NCBI RefSeq assembly: GCF_024741235.1
Contig: NZ_JANSKA010000001.1
Coordinates: forward strand, 248,001-312,000
Length of the DNA stretch: 64,000 nt
Source of the DNA: Tractidigestivibacter montrealensis
Lineage (GTDB): Bacteria > Actinomycetota > Coriobacteriia > Coriobacteriales > Atopobiaceae
Reading direction: 5' to 3'
Both the position numbers and the translations under genes were made by a program. This document shows, in pieces, positions 36,463 to 47,700 of the stretch. Positions within the stretch are counted from its first letter, which is position 1; every line of letters starts with the position of its first letter. The notes below the pieces were generated by a model. The model ran no database searches. It worked only from the letters and a program-made list of their open reading frames with translations, and was not told the DNA's origin.

Positions 36463-38556
36463 CTACCTCTCGGCGTCGCGTTGCTTCCAGGCCTCCTCGT
36501 TGCGCCAATCGTTCCCGTCGAGATGCCAGTTGTTGAAGTCGGAGACGTCCCCAACTATCTGATACTCAAGCAGGTCATAGTCACGCTTGCCGTCGTGCGT
36601 AAGCATGCAGTAGGTGCGCAGGCGATCCGCGGGGTCATGTCGGTCCTCAAGCGCCACGTTGAACTCTCCGTAGTGGTCGAGAACGTCCTGCGAGGCGCCC
36701 ATGCCCTTAAGCATGGTGGCCTGAAGGTCCTTGTGACTGGCCGGCTCCTGGGAGATTGCGCAAGGCGCTGCGTCGGCGCCAGCGTCCTGTGCAGGCTTCA
36801 CGAAGATGATGGGCGAGGTGGGCTCGGTAAGGGGCTCGTCCGTGAGGTACCACTCGCCATGGTCCGCCGTCACAATGATCGTAGACTGGTCATAGACCCC
36901 AAGCTGCTTGAGCTGTCTCAGGTACTCGGAGAGGATGTGGAACGTACCGAGCGTCTGGTCCTCAAGGCTCGTGCCTTCCTCGTTGAGGTTGCCCTGCGCG
37001 TCCATCGTGTAGGGCGTATGCGTCCCCACAAGGTGAATGAAGCGGAACGAGGCGTCCTCGCTGTTGATGGAGAGGCCTCGCTCCCTGAGCTTTTGATAGT
37101 ACGCCGGGTCATTCATGACATAGGGCGTGCTTGAGGGGTCATTCTCAGCTTCGCTCGAGAACATGGCATTGTTGATCTGGTCCGTGTAGTACCAGAAGAA
37201 GGGCTTGAGTGTCCATGGCATGTCGCGATAGAGCGAGCACTGGTAGAGAATCTCGAGCGTGCCCCGCTTGTCGAGCGCCTTCGATGCATCAAGGGGATGC
37301 ACGTTGATGGTGCGCGTTTTGGCATAATCGGGACTAAAGGAATCGGTGTAGATGCCCGCCGAGTAGCCCTGGGCGGAAACATCGTCCAGGAATGTGCTAC
37401 CCGAGTAGATACGGCCAAAAAAGTCGTTCCAAGTCTCCCCTGCCTTTGGATAAGAGCCCGTGAGCAGGAATGGAATCCCGTATCGCGTGGGTATCATCGA
37501 GCCGGTGCTGTTCTGGTACCACGTGAAGCCCGTGAACTCGTCGAGCATCTCGGGGTAATTGTCGTAGACGGCCTTGGTTTTGAGCGAGTCAACGGTATCA
37601 ACGACAAGCACGATAACATTCTTGTTCTTCGACACATCAAACATGCCCTGCTCGGTGGTGTAAATCCTCTGGGTCTGGATGCTCGAGCCATCCGGGGGCG
37701 AGACCCACAGGCTCACCACGCCCACCAGCTGAACAAGCACGAGAGCAACGCTCGCCACCGCCGCGACTGCCCTACCGGCCTTCTCGCGCGTAACGGCAAG
37801 CGTCACCAAGGCAGCAGCAATGGCTCCCCAAACGAGAAGGTTCCCCACCATTTCCCCGGTGTACTTGCTCCAGTCGATGAGGTTGCCGTCGGCAACCGTA
37901 AGGCCCCCATTGAGAAAGAGCGTCTGCACGTAGGAGCCAATGCCAACGGCAAGCGCCAGGGCGAGAAGCACGTCAAACGCTCGCCCGCGGAACACTGAGA
38001 GGACAAGGGCGCAGACAACGCCAACGAGAAGCCCCGCCACGAGGATGAGCTGCCACACGCTGTCCAGGCCAAAGACAAGCGACGCAGAGTTTGCGGCAAC
38101 GAGCTCGTAAGGAGCCACGACGAGAACCGTAAATGCATCGAACAGGCAGACGAGAAGCGAGAGCGCGAGGCGGCGGCGCCAGGGGACGCCCGCCAGGCGG
38201 CCCGTGGCGGCCCCGCGCGCGTTGCCGCCCGCGGCTGCAAGCGCCTCTCGCGCCGCCGCGTCGGCCGCGGCCTTGCCGGAGGGGTCGATGCGGGAGACCG
38301 CGGGCTCGACCACGCGGCCCGCCCCCTCGTCTACGTGCAGGAGCCGCATGAGGGCCCTGCGCGTCCGCCTGAAGGCCACGCCCAGCACCGCCGAGAGCGC
38401 CACGGCCACCGCGGCCAGCGCCTGGATGGTGTAGGTCATGACCGAGGGGTCCACGTAGGCGAGGGCCGGGGTCGCGGGCACGAGCACCCACACGGCAGTA
38501 AGGGCAAACGCGTAGAGCGCGTCGTGGAGCGCGAGCGCATTTCTCGTGCTTCTCAT
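36463..38556 (-). CDS. LtaS-like phosphoglycerol transferase / sulfatase paralogue 1
   Basis: 697 residues from ATG 38556 with AGGAGGAATG upstream. Several membrane helices lie in the first 285 residues, opening with an ATPALAYVDPSVMTYTIQAL block. An extracellular alkaline-phosphatase/sulfatase-fold domain follows. Likely metal and catalytic residues are VVDTVD (318-323), the nucleophile Thr in PTRYG (Thr357), His513 in GTHTPY, and DHG (565-567). LtaS enzymes move phosphoglycerol from phosphatidylglycerol onto a growing polymer outside the membrane. Last gene of the operon begun by the YidC-TagF fusion, 103 bases after paralogue 2. Its first 130 codons are nearly identical in DNA to paralogue 3. 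Confidence 0.85.
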   Translation of the reverse strand: MRSTRNALALHDALYAFALTAVWVLVPATPALAYVDPSVMTYTIQALAAVAVALSAVLGVAFRRTRRALMRLLHVDEGAGRVVEPAVSRIDPSGKAAADAAAREALAAAGGNARGAATGRLAGVPWRRRLALSLLVCLFDAFTVLVVAPYELVAANSASLVFGLDSVWQLILVAGLLVGVVCALVLSVFRGRAFDVLLALALAVGIGSYVQTLFLNGGLTVADGNLIDWSKYTGEMVGNLLVWGAIAAALVTLAVTREKAGRAVAAVASVALVLVQLVGVVSLWVSPPDGSSIQTQRIYTTEQGMFDVSKNKNVIVLVVDTVDSLKTKAVYDNYPEMLDEFTGFTWYQNSTGSMIPTRYGIPFLLTGSYPKAGETWNDFFGRIYSGSTFLDDVSAQGYSAGIYTDSFSPDYAKTRTINVHPLDASKALDKRGTLEILYQCSLYRDMPWTLKPFFWYYTDQINNAMFSSEAENDPSSTPYVMNDPAYYQKLRERGLSINSEDASFRFIHLVGTHTPYTMDAQGNLNEEGTSLEDQTLGTFHILSEYLRQLKQLGVYDQSTIIVTADHGEWYLTDEPLTEPTSPIIFVKPAQDAGADAAPCAISQEPASHKDLQATMLKGMGASQDVLDHYGEFNVALEDRHDPADRLRTYCMLTHDGKRDYDLLEYQIVGDVSDFNNWHLDGNDWRNEEAWKQRDAER

Positions 38557-38659
38557 GTTCTCATTCCTCCTACGTTCCCACCGGCGTCAGCGCCAGATGC
38601 GCTTGGCGCAAGCCGCCGAGAAGTAGACGGCATCGGCTGGCATCTCTCGCGCATCCTGT

Positions 38660-40771
38660 CTAGCGCTCGTTCGTCTCCCAAGTAACGCCCGTGAGGCTCC
38701 AGGAGTTCCAATCCTCCACAGGGCCAATCACGCTGAACTGGTACATGTGCGGCGTATAGTTCCCGTCCCACGTTGGAGCATCAAATGTGCGCACGCGCTT
38801 GTCGTCGAACGTGGCTGCAACGTCATACGCCGGAGTCCCGTACTTTGCAACCAAGTCCTGGTCGCCGTCGGATGCCTGATCGATAACGGTCGCAAGCACA
38901 TCGGGCGCCCAGACGGGAGTCGTCGCATCGATGGAAAGGCTCCCATGCGCAGCCCCCGCAGGCTTCACGAACAGAATCGGAGACGTCGGCCTCTCGATGG
39001 GGGTGTCTGACATGAAGTCGATCCTGCCGTGGTCGGCAGTCACGATGACCGTCGTGTTGTCGTAGACGCCAAGCTCCTTGAGGTCGTCGAGGTATGTCGA
39101 GACGATCCTGAAGGATCCGAGCGCCTGCTGCTCATAGGTGGTCTCGCCGTCCACCCGCTCGCCCTGCGCGTCCATCGTGTACGGGAAGTGGGCACCCAGA
39201 AGGTGGATGAAGCGGAACGACCCTGCCTCCCCGTCATTGTTTATGGAGAGGCCTCTCGCCTTCAGCTGCGCGTAGAACGACGGGTCATCAAAGTTGTAGG
39301 GAACATCACCAAGGTCATCCGCCTCCTCCTTGGGGGTGGACATCCGCTGGTTGAGCTCGTCGGTGTAGTACCAGAGGAAAGGCTTGACCATCCACGGTAG
39401 GTCACGATACAGCGCGGCCTTGTACATGATCCGTACCGCACCTGTCTCGTCGAGGCCACTCATGCCACCGTCATCAAGGGGATGGACGTTCTTAGCAAGC
39501 CCGGCGAGGGCATTCGGATCGCCATGGGTTGTCGAGCCCGAATCCGAATAGACCCCAATGTCATACCCCAGTGCACTGATGTCCCTAAGGTACGTGCTGT
39601 TGCTCACAGACGACTTCACGTAGTCCTGGAAGTCCTCGCCCTCCTGCGGAAGCTGGCCAGTGAGAAGGTACGAGCAGCCATAGCGCGTGGGCGCAAGGGA
39701 CCCAACCGAGTTCTGATACCAGGTGAACCCATCAAGCGAATCGAACATCGAGGGGTTGTTCGCGTACACCTCCTCAAGATACTGGGTGTCGGTCATGTCA
39801 AGGACAATGACCACGACGTTCTTCTTGTCGGAGACGTCGAAGAGTCCCTGCTCCGTATACACGTTTCCCTCGTCCTTGGGAACGGGGGCCGTAGTGGGGT
39901 TGAGCCAGATCGACGCGATGGCAACCGCCTGGACGATGATGAGCACCCCTGCGAGCGCGGCGTTCGCAAAGCGGGAGACCGACGGCTTCCAAACGGCTAT
40001 GACTACTGCCAGCGCAATCAAAGCGGCCCAAACAGCCGCGCTCACAACCATTGGCCCCTTGTAGAGGCCCCAGTCGACAAGACTGCCATTAGTGATGGGG
40101 AGCGATCCATTGAGGAACATCGCCTGCAGATAACCGCAAAGCGTCACGGCGGCAGCAAGCGCAAGCACAACGTCAAACGCACGACCGCGGATAACGGAGA
40201 TTACGAGGGCTGCGACGACAGCGATCAGCACTGCCGTGCGGGCGAGCACCGGCCAAACGGTATCGAGGCCATAGGTCAAGTCCGCGGTATTGGCGGCAAG
40301 CAGCTCGAACGGAGCAACGACGAGATACGTAATCACCAGCGCGACCGAGACGAGAAGGGCGAGCAGAAGCCTCTTTGGCCACTTGACCGTCTCCTTGTTT
40401 GCGCGTCTCCCCTCGCTATGCGCCGGGGCCCCGGCGGCCGAGAGCGCCTCGCGGGCGGCAGCGTCGGCCGCGGCCTTCGAGGAGGGGTCGATGCGGGAGA
40501 CCGCGGGCTCGACCACGCGGCCCGCGTCCTCGTCGATGTGAAGAAGCCTCATGAGCGCCCTGCGCGTCCGCCTGAAGGCCACGCCCAGCACCGCCGAGAG
40601 CGCCACGGCCACCGCGGCCAGCGCCTGGATGGTGTAGGTCATGACCGAGGGGTCCACGTAGGCGAGGGCCGGCGTGGCGGGCACGAGCACCCACACGGCC
40701 GCGAGGGCGGCGGCGTAGAGCCCGTCGTGGAGCGCGAGCGCCGGGACAAGCCTTCTGTTCTTGCCTCTCAA
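38660..40771 (-). CDS. LtaS-like phosphoglycerol transferase / sulfatase paralogue 2
   Basis: 703 residues from TTG 40771, chosen because GGAAGGAACG precedes it; no ATG with a site is available. Same plan as its neighbours: N-terminal helices with ATPALAYVDPSVMTYTIQAL, further helices to about residue 290, then the catalytic domain with VVIVLDMTD, the Thr of PTRYG, HLLGAHFPY and TADHGR. Catalytic-domain sequence is the most divergent of the three, so acceptor or donor may differ. Starts 30 bases after paralogue 3, so it is surely cotranscribed. Confidence 0.85.
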   Translation of the reverse strand: MRGKNRRLVPALALHDGLYAAALAAVWVLVPATPALAYVDPSVMTYTIQALAAVAVALSAVLGVAFRRTRRALMRLLHIDEDAGRVVEPAVSRIDPSSKAAADAAAREALSAAGAPAHSEGRRANKETVKWPKRLLLALLVSVALVITYLVVAPFELLAANTADLTYGLDTVWPVLARTAVLIAVVAALVISVIRGRAFDVVLALAAAVTLCGYLQAMFLNGSLPITNGSLVDWGLYKGPMVVSAAVWAALIALAVVIAVWKPSVSRFANAALAGVLIIVQAVAIASIWLNPTTAPVPKDEGNVYTEQGLFDVSDKKNVVVIVLDMTDTQYLEEVYANNPSMFDSLDGFTWYQNSVGSLAPTRYGCSYLLTGQLPQEGEDFQDYVKSSVSNSTYLRDISALGYDIGVYSDSGSTTHGDPNALAGLAKNVHPLDDGGMSGLDETGAVRIMYKAALYRDLPWMVKPFLWYYTDELNQRMSTPKEEADDLGDVPYNFDDPSFYAQLKARGLSINNDGEAGSFRFIHLLGAHFPYTMDAQGERVDGETTYEQQALGSFRIVSTYLDDLKELGVYDNTTVIVTADHGRIDFMSDTPIERPTSPILFVKPAGAAHGSLSIDATTPVWAPDVLATVIDQASDGDQDLVAKYGTPAYDVAATFDDKRVRTFDAPTWDGNYTPHMYQFSVIGPVEDWNSWSLTGVTWETNER

Positions 40772-40801
40772 GGTTTCGTTCCTTCCAAACTCGAACCGAC
40801 G

Positions 40802-42934
40802 TCAGTGCCAGATTCGCTCCGCATCGTCATCGGTGATGATCCAGTCGTTGCCATCAAGGTGCCAGTTCGCGAAGTCCTGGGAATCACCCGAGACCTCGTA
40901 CTCGCGCCAGCTGGTGTCCAGCTTGCCGTTGCTCGTCGTCATGAGGTAGTAGCGCAGACGATCAGCTGGGTCATTGCGGTCCTCGATGGCCTTGTTGTAC
41001 TCGCCGTAGTGGTCGAGCACGTCCTGCGAGGCGCCCATGCCCTTGAGCATCGTTGCTTGGAGGTCGTAGTGGCTTACGGGCTGTTGCGAGATCTGGCAGG
41101 GCACCGAGTCTGCCTCGGCAGACTGGGCCGGCTTCACGAAGATGATGGGGGTAGTGACTCCGTTTATCTCGTCCGGCGTGAGGTACCAGGTACCGTGATC
41201 CGCGGTGATGACCACCGTGGTGCTGTCGTAGAGACCCAGGCGCTTGAGTTCGTCGAGATAGGTGCGCACGATCTTGAAGGCTCCCACCATCTGGGACTCC
41301 CAGTCACTCGACTCCGGGACCTTGTTGCCGTCGGCATCCATGATGTAGGGCCAGTGCGTGCCAATGAGGTGGATGAAGCGGAACGAGGCGTCCTCGTCGT
41401 TCGTGGTGAGCCCACTCTCATTGAGCTTCGCGAAGTATGCCGGGTCGTCCATGGCGTAGGGGGTGACGTCAGGAGACGAGGCGCTGGCACTCGAGACCAT
41501 GCCCTGGTTGATCTGGTCCGTATAGAACCAGAAGAACGGCTTGGAGACCCAAGGGAGGTCGCGATAGAGCGCACAACGGTACAGGATGCTCAGCGTGCCC
41601 TGCCAATCGAGGGTCTGCTTCGCAACCTCGGAGGTTGACTCGAAGTTCTCGACGCGCTGTCCCAGATAGCCATCCCAGCCGTCGATCCAGCCAGCGGTAT
41701 CAGAGTAGACGCCCGTCGTGTATCCCTGGGCAGCAACGTCATCCAGGAAGTAGCTGCTCGTGTACATGTTCGCGAGGAAGTCGGCCGCGTCCTCGCCCGG
41801 CTTTGGCCGCACGCCCGTGAGCAGAGAGGGAATGCCGTAGCGCGTGGGAATCATCGACCCCACGCTGTTCTGATACCAGGTGAAGCCATCAAGCCCATCG
41901 AGCATGGCGGGGTTGTCGGCAAACGCCTTCTCGGCATCCGCAGTATCCGTCATGTCCAGAACGAAGCAGACCACGTTCTTCTTGGCGGATACGTCAAAGA
42001 GGCCCTTCTCAGTGATGGTAATAGCCTCGGGCTCTGATTCCGCCTTTGCCACGATGTCCACGACACCGGCAGACTGCACAATGATGAGAACGACGCTCGC
42101 CACGGCAACGACGGCCCTGCCAACACGCGGGCGCCTTGCCACAAGCGTCACGAGGCCAGCGACGATGGCAACCCACACGGCAAGGCTCACGAAGGTGATG
42201 CGGTTGTACTGGGTCCAGTCCACGAGGTTGCCGTCGGCAACGGGAAGGCTCGAGTTCATGAACATGACCTCGGCGAATGCCCCCACGCCCAGGGCGGCCA
42301 CAACGGCAACGACCACGTCGAACGCGCGGCCGCGGAGCACGGTGAGCGCAAACCCGCAGGCAAGTGCGATGAGGAGACCGGCAACAACCACCAACTGCCA
42401 GATCTGCCGTACGCCAAAGAGCAGGCTGCTCGAGCTGCCTGCCACAAGCTCGAGCGGGGCCACCACAAGCACGGTAAAGGCGAGAAGCGCGCTGGCAAGA
42501 AGCGAGAGCGCGAGGCGGCGGCGCCAGGGGACGCCCGCCGGGCGGCCCGTGGCGGCCCCGCGCGCGTTGCCGCCCGCGGCTGCAAGCGCCTCTCGCGCCG
42601 CCGCGTCGGCCGCGGCCTTGCCGGAGGGGTCGATGCGGGAGACCGCGGGCTCGGCCACGCGCCCCGCCCCCTCGTCTACGTGCAGGATCCTCATGAGGGC
42701 CCTGCGCGTGCGCCTGAAGGCCACGCCCAGCACCGCCGAGAGCGCCACCGCCACGGCGGCCAGCGCCTGGATCGTGTAGGTCATGACCGAGGGGTCCACG
42801 TACGCGAGGGCCGGCGTGGCCATCGCCGTGAGCAGGCAGGCACTTATCGCAGCAAGGCCAAGGACGTCCCACACAAGGACCAGCAGGCGCCCAGCAATGC
42901 GGTGCGCACCCTTTTGGGAGCGGCTAGTCATCAT
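40802..42934 (-). CDS. LtaS-like phosphoglycerol transferase / sulfatase paralogue 3
   Basis: 710 residues from the tandem ATG-ATG at 42934/42931, inside the last codons of the upstream fusion gene (overlap 8-11 bases), so translation is coupled. The long upstream open frame is only a shadow of that gene. N-terminal helices with ATPALAYVDPSVMTYTIQAL, more helices to about 290, then the catalytic domain with CFVLDMTDTAD, PTRYGIPSLLTG, HLIGTHWPY and TADHGTWY. The catalytic half is closer to paralogue 1 than to paralogue 2. Confidence 0.87.
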   Translation of the reverse strand: MMTSRSQKGAHRIAGRLLVLVWDVLGLAAISACLLTAMATPALAYVDPSVMTYTIQALAAVAVALSAVLGVAFRRTRRALMRILHVDEGAGRVAEPAVSRIDPSGKAAADAAAREALAAAGGNARGAATGRPAGVPWRRRLALSLLASALLAFTVLVVAPLELVAGSSSSLLFGVRQIWQLVVVAGLLIALACGFALTVLRGRAFDVVVAVVAALGVGAFAEVMFMNSSLPVADGNLVDWTQYNRITFVSLAVWVAIVAGLVTLVARRPRVGRAVVAVASVVLIIVQSAGVVDIVAKAESEPEAITITEKGLFDVSAKKNVVCFVLDMTDTADAEKAFADNPAMLDGLDGFTWYQNSVGSMIPTRYGIPSLLTGVRPKPGEDAADFLANMYTSSYFLDDVAAQGYTTGVYSDTAGWIDGWDGYLGQRVENFESTSEVAKQTLDWQGTLSILYRCALYRDLPWVSKPFFWFYTDQINQGMVSSASASSPDVTPYAMDDPAYFAKLNESGLTTNDEDASFRFIHLIGTHWPYIMDADGNKVPESSDWESQMVGAFKIVRTYLDELKRLGLYDSTTVVITADHGTWYLTPDEINGVTTPIIFVKPAQSAEADSVPCQISQQPVSHYDLQATMLKGMGASQDVLDHYGEYNKAIEDRNDPADRLRYYLMTTSNGKLDTSWREYEVSGDSQDFANWHLDGNDWIITDDDAERIWH

Positions 42935-44870
42935 TGTCGCCCTGATTCCCCGTCCCAAACGCACCAGCCGCGGTAATGTCCTTGCCCTCCTGCTTTGCGA
43001 GGACCTCGCCGAGGATGTACTCGCCCGCGGCCTCGCCGCCGTGGCCAAGGTTGTAGATGAAGCCGTCACGGATCTGGCGAATCCTGTCGTTCCAGGACGA
43101 GGAGTTCGTGACCATGTCGTCGATGACATCCTCGAGCTCGGAGAGGTCCTTGGGGTCAAGCGAGTGGCCAATCTGGTTGCGCAGCGTGATGTCGGTGGGC
43201 GTGATGCCAACCTGCTCGTAGTCCGGGTTGATGACCTTCATGGGGGTGTCGATGAAGAGCGAGGGCTTGAGCGTAGTGAACGAGAACTCCTCGGCAATCG
43301 TCGACCAGTCGGTCACCAGGACGTCGGACTCGAGGATGGAGCCGTGGCCGGAGAAGTCCGCCTCGATGGTGAGCTCGTCGGGGCTCACCTTGGAGTAACG
43401 CTCGACAAGCGCCTCCCAGCGCGGGCGGTAGCGCTTCACGTACTCGGGGTGGGGACGAAGAATCACGTGGTAACCGTGGCCAAGCAGGCGGCTGAGCATG
43501 TCGTCGATGCAGGTGTCGAGGATGTTGTCCGTGTTCCACGAGGGCGCGATGAGGATGATGGGGCGCTCGTGCTTCTCGTGCGGCATCTTCTCGTAGTCTG
43601 CCATCTCGCGGTCGAGAAGGTCGTAGCCAATCTCGGGGACCTTCTTCTTCTGCGTGTGGTAGGCCTTCTCCATGCCGCGGATCTCTGCCTTCTGGTGAGG
43701 GCCAACGCACATGATGGTGTCGTAGTTGTCGTACTCCTGCTTGGTGCCCGTCATGTGCATCGAGGTCATGTGGTGGCACATGTAGATGTACTCGATGTCC
43801 TTGCGGATGTAGGAGCGCTTGATGTAGTACACGTCGAGCGCGCCAAGCGAGGTCACCACGACGTCGGCATCCATCTTCATCATGAGGGTGATGAGACGCT
43901 TCTGGTCGAGGAAGTACGGGATGAGGCGCGGCTCGCGCTTGGCGATGTCAAAGACCTGGTCGTTGGGGTCACTCGTAAGGTAGTGGATACGCACGTCGGA
44001 GTTGTTGAGCAGCCACTCGATAGCACCCCTAAAGTACTTGTAGAAGCCCGAGCTCTCGGAGTAGAACACCAGGTGCTTGCCATCCACCTTGAAGAAGCGC
44101 TTGTAGTCCGCCTTGGCGCGACGGGCCAGTGGGTCTGGCTGGTACCACTTGCGGTCACCCTTGGTGGCCTCTTCGATGGCGTTGAACTCGTCGCGCGCGG
44201 CGTTGAGGTCCTCGTAGTCGATGTAGTCGCGCGGCTTCACGATCACGTTGCACAGCACCTGCACCACAATCGAGAGCAGGTTGGAGCACACCCAGTAGAA
44301 GGCCATGCCGCACACCACGTAGAAGCCCAGGAAGAGCGAAAGGGCAATGGAGAGGCCGTTGGTCATGTTCTTCTCGGCGCGGGACTGCTCGCGCTGCAGG
44401 GGGTTGATGTGGTTGGAGGCCCAGCCCATGATCACGGCCGAGAGGCCCGCGAGCAATGGCATGACGAGCGACGCGCCGCCGTTCTCGATGGGCACAAGGC
44501 CGAGAAACTCGGTGCCGGGGGCGCCGGAATCCGTGATGGAATGGATGACGTCAACCAGGCCAAAGAGGATGACCACCTGGATGGCCAGGGGGATGAGCGA
44601 GAGAAGCGCATGGTAGTGCTTCTCGTGATAGAGCTCGTTTTGCTTCTCCTCGATGGTCTCGCGGTCACCGTAGTAGCGGCACTTAATGCGGAACAGCTCG
44701 GGCATGAGCTGCACCATCACGATGCTGTTCTTCTGGCACCATACCGAGAGCGGCATGAGGATGACCTTGGAGAACAGGGTGAAGAGAAAGATTGCCGCCC
44801 ACCAACTACCGGTGAGGTCGTAGGCCGGCTGCACGATAAGCGAGAAGAAATTCGCTAGCGCCTCGAACAT
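42924..44870 (-). CDS. YidC/Oxa1 insertase fused to TagF-like CDP-glycerol glycerophosphotransferase
   Basis: 648 residues from ATG 44870. Residues 1-210 are a YidC/Oxa1 domain with about five membrane helices. WWAAIFLFTLFSKVILMPL is the first core helix, followed by the charged hairpin ELFRIKCRYYGDRETIEEKQ and SLIPLAIQVVILFGLVDVI. The groove residue that is Arg in most YidC proteins is Lys35. Residues about 250-600 are a CDP-glycerol glycerophosphotransferase (TagB/TagF family): HLVFYSESSGFYKYFRG, YIYMCHHMTSMH, LIAPSWN, ILRPHPEY and VLVTDWSTIAEEFSF. TagF adds glycerol phosphate units from CDP-glycerol at the inner membrane face. Joined in one frame with no break. Head of an operon with three LtaS-like genes. 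Confidence 0.9.
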   Translation of the reverse strand: MFEALANFFSLIVQPAYDLTGSWWAAIFLFTLFSKVILMPLSVWCQKNSIVMVQLMPELFRIKCRYYGDRETIEEKQNELYHEKHYHALLSLIPLAIQVVILFGLVDVIHSITDSGAPGTEFLGLVPIENGGASLVMPLLAGLSAVIMGWASNHINPLQREQSRAEKNMTNGLSIALSLFLGFYVVCGMAFYWVCSNLLSIVVQVLCNVIVKPRDYIDYEDLNAARDEFNAIEEATKGDRKWYQPDPLARRAKADYKRFFKVDGKHLVFYSESSGFYKYFRGAIEWLLNNSDVRIHYLTSDPNDQVFDIAKREPRLIPYFLDQKRLITLMMKMDADVVVTSLGALDVYYIKRSYIRKDIEYIYMCHHMTSMHMTGTKQEYDNYDTIMCVGPHQKAEIRGMEKAYHTQKKKVPEIGYDLLDREMADYEKMPHEKHERPIILIAPSWNTDNILDTCIDDMLSRLLGHGYHVILRPHPEYVKRYRPRWEALVERYSKVSPDELTIEADFSGHGSILESDVLVTDWSTIAEEFSFTTLKPSLFIDTPMKVINPDYEQVGITPTDITLRNQIGHSLDPKDLSELEDVIDDMVTNSSSWNDRIRQIRDGFIYNLGHGGEAAGEYILGEVLAKQEGKDITAAGAFGTGNQGDNDD

Positions 44871-46342: not shown

Positions 46343-47503
46343 CTAGAGTGCCGCGCGGTAGATCTCCACGATGTCGTCGGCCGTGAGGGGCACGAAGCTA
46401 CCCTTGCTGCCAGCGGCGGCCTTCTCGGCCATCACACGGAAGTTCTTCTCGCCATCGATGCCAACGGCACGCAGGTTGGCCGGCATGCCCATGGTCACAA
46501 AGAAGAACTCGCGGGTCTTGGCAATGGCGTCGCGTGCCACGGACATGTCGTCGGTGCCCTGCAGGCCCCAGACGTTGCGGCCGTACGTTGCGAACATGGA
46601 CGCGGTCCTGACAGAGAGCACGTGCTCCATCCACGCAGGCGTGAGGATGGCCAGGCCCTCGCCGTGCGTGATGTCATAGAAGGCAGAGAGCTCGTGCTCC
46701 ATGGGGTGCACGCACCAGGCGTTGGCGGCACCAGCGTTGACCAGGCCGTTAATCGCGTGCGAGGCAGCCCACATGAGGTTGGCTCGGGCCTCGTAGTTAT
46801 CCGGCTCCTCAAGCGCGATGGGCCCGTAGTGAATCATGGTGCGGAGAAGCCCTTCGGCCATGCGCTGCTGGACATAGGCGCCCGGCTCCATGGTGAAGTA
46901 GTTCTCGAAGGTGTGGCTCATCATGTCCGCCGTGCCGGCAGCCGTCTGGCGGCGCGAGACGGTGAAGGTGTAGGTGGGGTCGAGCACGGACATCGTGGGC
47001 TTCATGCACTCGGCGGCAGTGCCCCACTTCTCGTTCTTGGTCATGTCCGAGATCACGGCGAACGGATCCATCTCCGAGCCGGTCGCGGAGAGCGTGAGCA
47101 CCGAGAAGATGGGGAGCGCGGCGGTAATCTTCTCGGGATGAATCACCAGGTCCCAGGGGTCGCCGTCATAGCGGGCACCGGCCGCGACAACCTTGGCGCA
47201 ATCGATCGTGGAGCCGCCGCCAATGGCGAGGACCATGTCGACACCCGTGGTCTTGCACGTCTCGACGCCGCGGCGGACGGTCTCGATGCGGGGGTTGGGC
47301 TCCACGCCGGAGAGCTCCTCGACCTCCACGCCTACCTGGCCGAGGATGCGCAGGGCCTCGTCGTAGATGCCGTTGCGCTTGATGGAGCCGCCACCATAGC
47401 AGAGCAGGGCCTTCTTGCCGTACTGGGCAAGCTCGTCGAGGTGCGAGATCTGGCCCTTGCCAAAGTGGATGGTAGTGGGGACGTGAAACGTGAAGTTGTA
47501 CAT
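46343..47503 (-). CDS. Iron-containing alcohol dehydrogenase (butanol dehydrogenase type)
   Basis: 386 residues from ATG 47503 (AGAAGGGAAA upstream). Group III iron/zinc ADH: MYNFTFHVPTTIHFGKGQI start, GGGSIKRNGIYD, GGGSTIDCAK (NAD(P) site, near residue 94), and metal ligands in DMMSHTFENYF, HPMEHELSAFYDITHGEGLA and related His residues. Closest in style to BdhA/YqhD enzymes, which reduce aldehydes, commonly with NADPH. Probably a fermentation or aldehyde-removal enzyme; substrate not determined. Confidence 0.92.
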   Translation of the reverse strand: MYNFTFHVPTTIHFGKGQISHLDELAQYGKKALLCYGGGSIKRNGIYDEALRILGQVGVEVEELSGVEPNPRIETVRRGVETCKTTGVDMVLAIGGGSTIDCAKVVAAGARYDGDPWDLVIHPEKITAALPIFSVLTLSATGSEMDPFAVISDMTKNEKWGTAAECMKPTMSVLDPTYTFTVSRRQTAAGTADMMSHTFENYFTMEPGAYVQQRMAEGLLRTMIHYGPIALEEPDNYEARANLMWAASHAINGLVNAGAANAWCVHPMEHELSAFYDITHGEGLAILTPAWMEHVLSVRTASMFATYGRNVWGLQGTDDMSVARDAIAKTREFFFVTMGMPANLRAVGIDGEKNFRVMAEKAAAGSKGSFVPLTADDIVEIYRAAL

Positions 47504-47700
47504 GCTGTTTCCCTTCTCGTGCAAACAGGCGCCAGCCCCATTGATACCCAGTGCGGCCAACCGGTAGCACGGTATTGGCGGTCAGCGGGAGAGATGACCA
47601 TGTAAATGCCTGCAGCTCCCGGCAAACGGAACCTGATATTGCCATTCGACCATCGCAAGCATTAGTAACTTTGATATTTTTATGCTCACCAGAGGCCCTT

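Follow-up and report, generated by a model that had tools for sequence, protein, structure and literature searches.

Why would a bacterium join a membrane-protein insertase to a teichoic-acid-type transferase, and what could such a protein do? The question is raised by a gene of Tractidigestivibacter montrealensis (Atopobiaceae, Coriobacteriales), found in a window of 64,000 nucleotides (the whole stretch of DNA analysed here, i.e., positions 248,001 to 312,000 of contig NZ_JANSKA010000001.1, assembly GCF_024741235.1). The gene (42924..44870, minus strand) starts with ATG and encodes 648 amino acids in one intact frame, and we confirmed that its product unites a domain of the YidC/Oxa1 proteins, known as insertases, with a transferase of the TagF type, as a sequence-only reading of the window had proposed for these coordinates. 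The fusion is probably part of a machine that decorates the cell surface. In the account that we favor, tentatively and with a little less than even confidence, a membrane-seated transferase of the TagF fold, with a dedicated YidC paralogue as its base, would load head groups activated by cytidine monophosphate (CMP) onto a lipid at the YidC groove, for use by an LtaS-like enzyme outside the membrane.

Two folds in one frame

The YidC/Oxa1 domain occupies residues 1-215 (44226..44870; all features of the fusion and its partners lie on the minus strand) and was delineated from a PF02096 match, an AlphaFold2 model and five hydrophobic segments, which correspond to five transmembrane (TM) segments accompanied by a cytoplasmic hairpin. 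In Pfam, PF02096 matched residues 23-208 (E 1.7e-27, 96.9 bits against a cut-off of 35), while the stricter TIGR03592 gave 83.1 bits, below its cut-off of 84.3, with a Clostridial member of the family scoring 105.8. The TagF-type GT-B transferase domain spans residues about 262-631 (42978..44087), as judged from PF04464 and from structural matches to TagF and TarL; PF04464 itself matched residues 374-537 only (E 1.9e-8, 34.1 bits against a cut-off of 22.1), and it is the model that extends the domain to residues ~262-630. Both families therefore exceed their cut-offs within a single frame. When the full-length fusion was used as a profile query against the PDB, only YidC was returned, and a profile of the transferase domain was needed to see the relation to TagF at the sequence level.

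The AlphaFold2 model, made with 69 homologues (pLDDT 89, pTM 0.72), bore out both assignments. Residues 1-219 superposed on the YidC of B. halodurans (YidC2, 3wo7) with a Z of 18.5 and a root-mean-square deviation of 2.8 over 199 residues, i.e., a five-TM YidC fold, and, among the solved structures compared, residues 221-631 were closest to TagF (3l7k, Z 22.4), followed by TarL (8va1, Z 21.8). Like TagF and TarL, the fusion thus has a GT-B fold and is membrane associated, yet it is only 16% identical to them and carries a YidC domain in place of the membrane-binding region of TagF. Similarly, it shares with YidC/Oxa1 proteins the five-TM core, the hairpin and a positive charge in the groove, but has an enzyme where these have a C-terminal tail. 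The genome also encodes a separate, ordinary housekeeping YidC (C4:690068); no second PF04464 protein was found in it.

Six residues, H366, R472, H474, D521, S523 and K35, were invariant in all 69 homologues. His474 (43449..43451) belongs to an RPHPE motif, the R-x-H-P of TagF/TarL, and Asp521-Trp-Ser523 (43302..43310) to a TDWS motif with invariant Asp and Ser, the T-D-x-S of those enzymes (TDYSS in TagF); both align with the matching motifs of TarL and Cps3D. His366 (43773..43775) may, by its position relative to the motifs, correspond to the first catalytic His (TagF His444, TarL His300). Lys35 (44766..44768) stands where YidC proteins carry their groove Arg; the genome's own YidC has Arg there, and every one of the fusion homologues has Lys. 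Of note, positions conserved in at least 90% of the homologues make up about 28% of the YidC domain and 24% of the enzyme domain. As the YidC part is as conserved as the enzyme, it is not a drifting anchor.

Among 299 Coriobacteriales genomes, about 57 carried the full continuous fusion at 49-99% identity (mostly 57-99%). About 15 more, mostly of family f5, carried a divergent form of 720-780 amino acids at near 40% identity, the YidC part of which contains a large additional loop. An independent, GTDB-wide collection contained 386 relatives, and the best 79 loci yielded 76 fusion frames. The best 79 included fusions of Lachnospiraceae, Oscillospiraceae, Christensenellaceae and Anaerotruncus, 42-50% identical over residues 1-630. 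Full-length frames across Coriobacteriales and the independent collection rule out an assembly artefact or chance read-through. The sequence-only reading had looked to Coriobacteriia for the fusion; it is indeed there, but confinement to that class did not hold, as Clostridia carry the full-length form too. The frame was broken in one metagenome-assembled genome (MAG; L089), apparently a case of assembly error or decay confined to this genome. Two further MAGs with the fusion, labelled Victivallales and Planctomycetia, may be mis-binned.

In a phylogenetic tree, the YidC domains of the fusions formed one clade (support 99/99) apart from 13 housekeeping YidCs. Together with the mere 22% identity between the fusion's YidC domain and the genome's own YidC, this rules out a recent origin from the latter. 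YidC-TagF is an old, widespread family in gut and oral bacteria, and its members include that of Lancefieldella (Atopobium) rimae (L063). While both domains are known, the fusion and the arrangements set out below seem undescribed: we found no account of them in a literature search that was thin on subscription journals.

LtaS-like partners and the exchange of modules

Directly downstream of the fusion lie three tandem genes for LtaS-like, sulfatase-fold membrane proteins, and the genome has no others of this sort: partner 3 (40802..42934, 710 amino acids, PF00884 at 2.3e-7), partner 2 (38660..40771, 703 amino acids) and partner 1 (36463..38556, 697 amino acids). The stop of the fusion overlaps the ATG start of partner 3 by 11 nucleotides (ATGATGACTAG, 42924..42934), an arrangement that likely couples their translation. 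The three paralogues (36463-42934) have diverged, being 47-62% identical when compared with partner 3, while their N-termini are near-identical (YVDPSVMTYTIQ).

Each partner combines TM helices with an extracytoplasmic sulfatase-fold domain, as LtaS does, and LtaS was their best profile match among solved structures (5e-12). Moreover, D312, T349, D564 and H565 (numbered from the codon at 42889) were invariant in 34 sequences, so that the catalytic Thr and the metal-binding Asp-His of the fold are kept. Yet partner 3, the only one scored, reached 16.9 bits with the LtaS equivalog NF053595, whose cut-off is 970, and unlike LtaS the partners begin with a signal-peptide-like segment followed by YVDP (ATPALA/YVDP in partner 3). 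They are LtaS-like, not LtaS. Sulfamidase, choline sulfatase and YejM matched the sulfatase fold equally or nearly as well, a result that is uninformative on substrate.

The sequence-only reading had linked the fusion to these neighbors, and the link proved general: of the 52 fusion loci with enough flank, 38 had an LtaS-like gene within 500 bp or fused to the fusion itself. The LtaS-like gene follows the fusion in Coriobacteriia and precedes it in most Clostridia. In ten loci from several genera (L034-L038, L078, L083, L088, L092, L125), YidC, TagF and sulfatase modules form single frames of about 1,360-1,400 amino acids, and within one genus the same neighborhood holds a triple fusion in one genome (G033) and the two-gene form in another (G132). 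Every triple fusion keeps an internal A-x-A/Y-x-D-P site (AxA/YVDP), and its likeness to a site of signal-peptide cleavage suggests that the chain may be split in two, like a polyprotein processed after translocation.

A second arrangement unites YidC with the sulfatase rather than with TagF (a protein of about 930 amino acids, e.g., at L088:10229-13054, L172-L176 and L141:5115-7925), and a separate gene beside it encodes a TagF-like protein with a single N-terminal TM helix of its own and the sequence YIDPGTGS. In nine genomes 59-270 bp separate the two genes, and in G275 and G120 the distance is greater. The YidC of this arrangement constitutes a third clade (support 100/99) and has Asn in place of the groove Arg. 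YidC was apparently recruited to such machinery twice, independently.

Taken together, the 38 of 52 loci with an adjacent or fused LtaS-like gene, the triple frames and the YidC-sulfatase arrangement make the three modules look like one machine. Furthermore, since YidC can be found on the sulfatase where TagF brings a TM helix of its own, the role of YidC should be more than anchoring a polymerase. Anchoring as the sole function, which the earlier reading had offered, is thereby unlikely, all the more given the equal conservation of the two domains.

Candidates for the activated head group

Enzymes of the PF04464 family release CMP from the donor, and a membrane-bound alcohol accepts the transferred group. 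CDP-glycerol, the donor that the sequence-only reading had assumed, is doubtful for the fusion. TagD (TIGR01518) was found in none of the eight genomes of the genus, a result that leaves room for other CDP-glycerol routes, and it was not enriched with the fusion (4/39). A second strong IspD-type gene (a possible TarI) is present in the window genome only and not in congeners, and TarI/IspD was rejected as the source of CDP-ribitol. What the fusion does track are genes that activate choline-type or aminophosphonate groups. A protein with helix-turn-helix, NTP_transferase and choline-kinase domains, counted as present at E <= 1e-100, occurred in 54 of 57 fusion genomes and in 83 of 242 others (p=6e-18; within family f1, p=4e-10), values that are optimistic because the genomes are related and their independence is overstated. 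In 16 of the 54 genomes it lies no more than 10 kb from the fusion, where about two would be expected. Three fusion genomes did not have it: G076, G068 of the same genus, and G030, an 82% complete draft. In G076 (L039), a gene a few kb from the fusion encodes a cytidylyltransferase with an attached CobD-like phosphothreonine decarboxylase domain. Proteins combining a cytidylyltransferase with a CobD-like decarboxylase/aminotransferase (L039:3067-4917, L120:8799-10658, L128:2131-3939) might supply CDP-ethanolamine or CDP-aminopropanol.

In Clostridial loci and in G246, genes for phosphoenolpyruvate (PEP) mutase, phosphonopyruvate decarboxylase (Ppd), an iron-type alcohol dehydrogenase (Fe-ADH) and a PntC-type enzyme stand beside the fusion. 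PEP mutase (414 bits) and 2-aminoethylphosphonate (AEP) transaminase (375 bits) passed curated cut-offs in these loci. Matches to TIGR03297 below its cut-off were discarded as other thiamine pyrophosphate enzymes. PEP mutase was present in nine of the 299 Coriobacteriales genomes, six of which also have the fusion (p=0.002). PEP mutase is absent from the window genome, so that the phosphonate link is confined to its relatives, and an Fe-ADH gene in the window (46343-47560) was set aside as a phosphonate enzyme for the same reason. Our best guess at the common denominator of the fusion's neighbors is CMP-activated groups of the choline, ethanolamine or aminophosphonate type. What resembles the Pnt and Lic pathways (PntC, LicC, LicD) is this CMP activation, of AEP or phosphocholine, by genes next to the fusion or elsewhere in its genome; what differs is that the known Lic transferase is LicD (PMC6697681).

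Several loci hold further combinations of these genes. A single protein with a PntC-type nucleotidyltransferase, CTP_transf_like and PEP mutase domains is encoded beside the fusion at L114:7847-9913, L122:8575-10944 and L124:7881-9890. Two choline-type nucleotidyltransferases (L167:7506-9314 and L167:12932-13816, in G000:C7) bear an N-terminal winged-helix domain and are perhaps self-regulating; a LicD gene (L167:17065-17892) is close by. At L131:1947-5078, a LicD protein of 1,044 amino acids is encoded directly upstream of the fusion. In Anaerotruncus sp. G3, two divergent fusion copies flank a phage-type integrase gene (L118:2784-7881), and phosphonate genes accompany one copy only.

The same donor evidence would suit a LicD-like decorator that works in the cytosol on an undecaprenyl-linked glycan, to which it attaches phosphocholine or phosphonate, with YidC positioning the enzyme at the lipid and flipping nothing, and the LicD gene adjoining the fusion of L131 agrees with such a role. 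This reading is unlikely in our view, as it leaves unexplained both the tight coupling or fusion to an extracytoplasmic sulfatase-fold transferase and the separate union of YidC with a sulfatase-fold enzyme. A CDP-glycerol:poly(glycerophosphate) polymerase, anchored by its YidC helices and building, with LtaS, the backbone of a wall or lipoteichoic acid, would fit TagF as the closest solved fold, the PF04464 match and the LtaS-like neighbors. It is nevertheless improbable: the distribution of TagD and of the second IspD-type gene speaks against its donor, and an anchor-only YidC is at odds with the single TM helix that suffices for related TagF-like proteins, with the conservation of the domain and with its attachment to the sulfatase in the second arrangement.

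A possible route across the membrane

In the account that we favor, the cytosolic TagF-fold domain would take a small CMP-activated head group, releasing CMP, and place it on a lipid or lipid-linked molecule held at the YidC groove. In the window organism, the head group would most likely be phosphocholine or phosphoethanolamine from donors of the CDP-choline type, and in phosphonate-making relatives 2-aminoethyl- or 2-hydroxyethyl-phosphonate. The acceptor would be presented by the groove, along which the lipid, once loaded, may cross; at the cell surface, the LtaS-like enzyme outside would then move the head group or polymerise with it, if the flow indeed runs outward. The observations beneath this scheme are the two domains in a conserved frame, the intact motifs, the coupling to an LtaS-like enzyme and the attachment of YidC to either enzyme. 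Flipping or presenting the product was also among the roles offered by the sequence-only reading; such a role is compatible with the data and is the one we prefer, although flipping is conjectural. Passage of lipid has a precedent in liposomes, where lipids are scrambled by E. coli YidC and by further insertases of the Oxa1 type (PMC10491306).

A dedicated insertase or chaperone that folds the polytopic LtaS-like partners, a further role offered by the sequence-only reading, with the transferase serving to keep the pathway together, would accord with the YidC fold, the groove charge kept as an invariant Lys and three partner paralogues in the operon translated immediately after the fusion, but it is quite unlikely, given that the genome already has an ordinary YidC and that insertase and client would share one chain both in the triple fusions and in YidC-sulfatase, the latter with a groove Asn rather than Arg or Lys.

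Several points weigh against the account of head-group loading at a YidC groove. Ten of the 52 loci had no LtaS-like gene within the flanks examined. The choline-kinase protein is also present in 83 fusion-less genomes and could serve LicD, which the window genome has; the choline-type gene of that genome is on another contig, not beside the fusion; PEP mutase is absent from it; and the relatedness of the genomes flatters the co-occurrence. To our knowledge, characterised PF04464 enzymes all use CDP-glycerol, CDP-ribitol or similar polyols. The acceptor is conjectural, and scrambling by insertases in vitro is no proof that the fusion's YidC domain scrambles.

A bolder version, which we consider speculative and somewhat unlikely, is a transmembrane relay of head groups: the inside enzyme would load a CMP-activated aminoalkyl phosphate or phosphonate on a membrane lipid, YidC, recruited twice (YidC-TagF and YidC-sulfatase), would scramble the loaded lipid instead of inserting proteins, and the outside enzyme would deliver the head group to surface polymer. 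For part of phosphonate tailoring, the fusion would then supply the transferase that is missing downstream of PntC. In the study in which the PntC of Lancefieldella rimae (then A. rimae) was assayed, the step after CMP-AEP is described as unknown, and neither a glycerophosphotransferase nor a YidC enzyme is mentioned (PMC6697681). The fusion family is a concrete candidate for this transferase acting after CMP-activation of aminophosphonates, L. rimae included.

If true, a dedicated YidC paralogue joined to a surface enzyme in two unions would give the fold another job, for which the lipid scrambling of E. coli YidC in vitro offers a testable form. Phosphocholine and phosphonates displayed on gut and oral Coriobacteriia and Clostridia have a bearing on host recognition, and the YidC-TagF family may belong to their as yet unmapped assembly.

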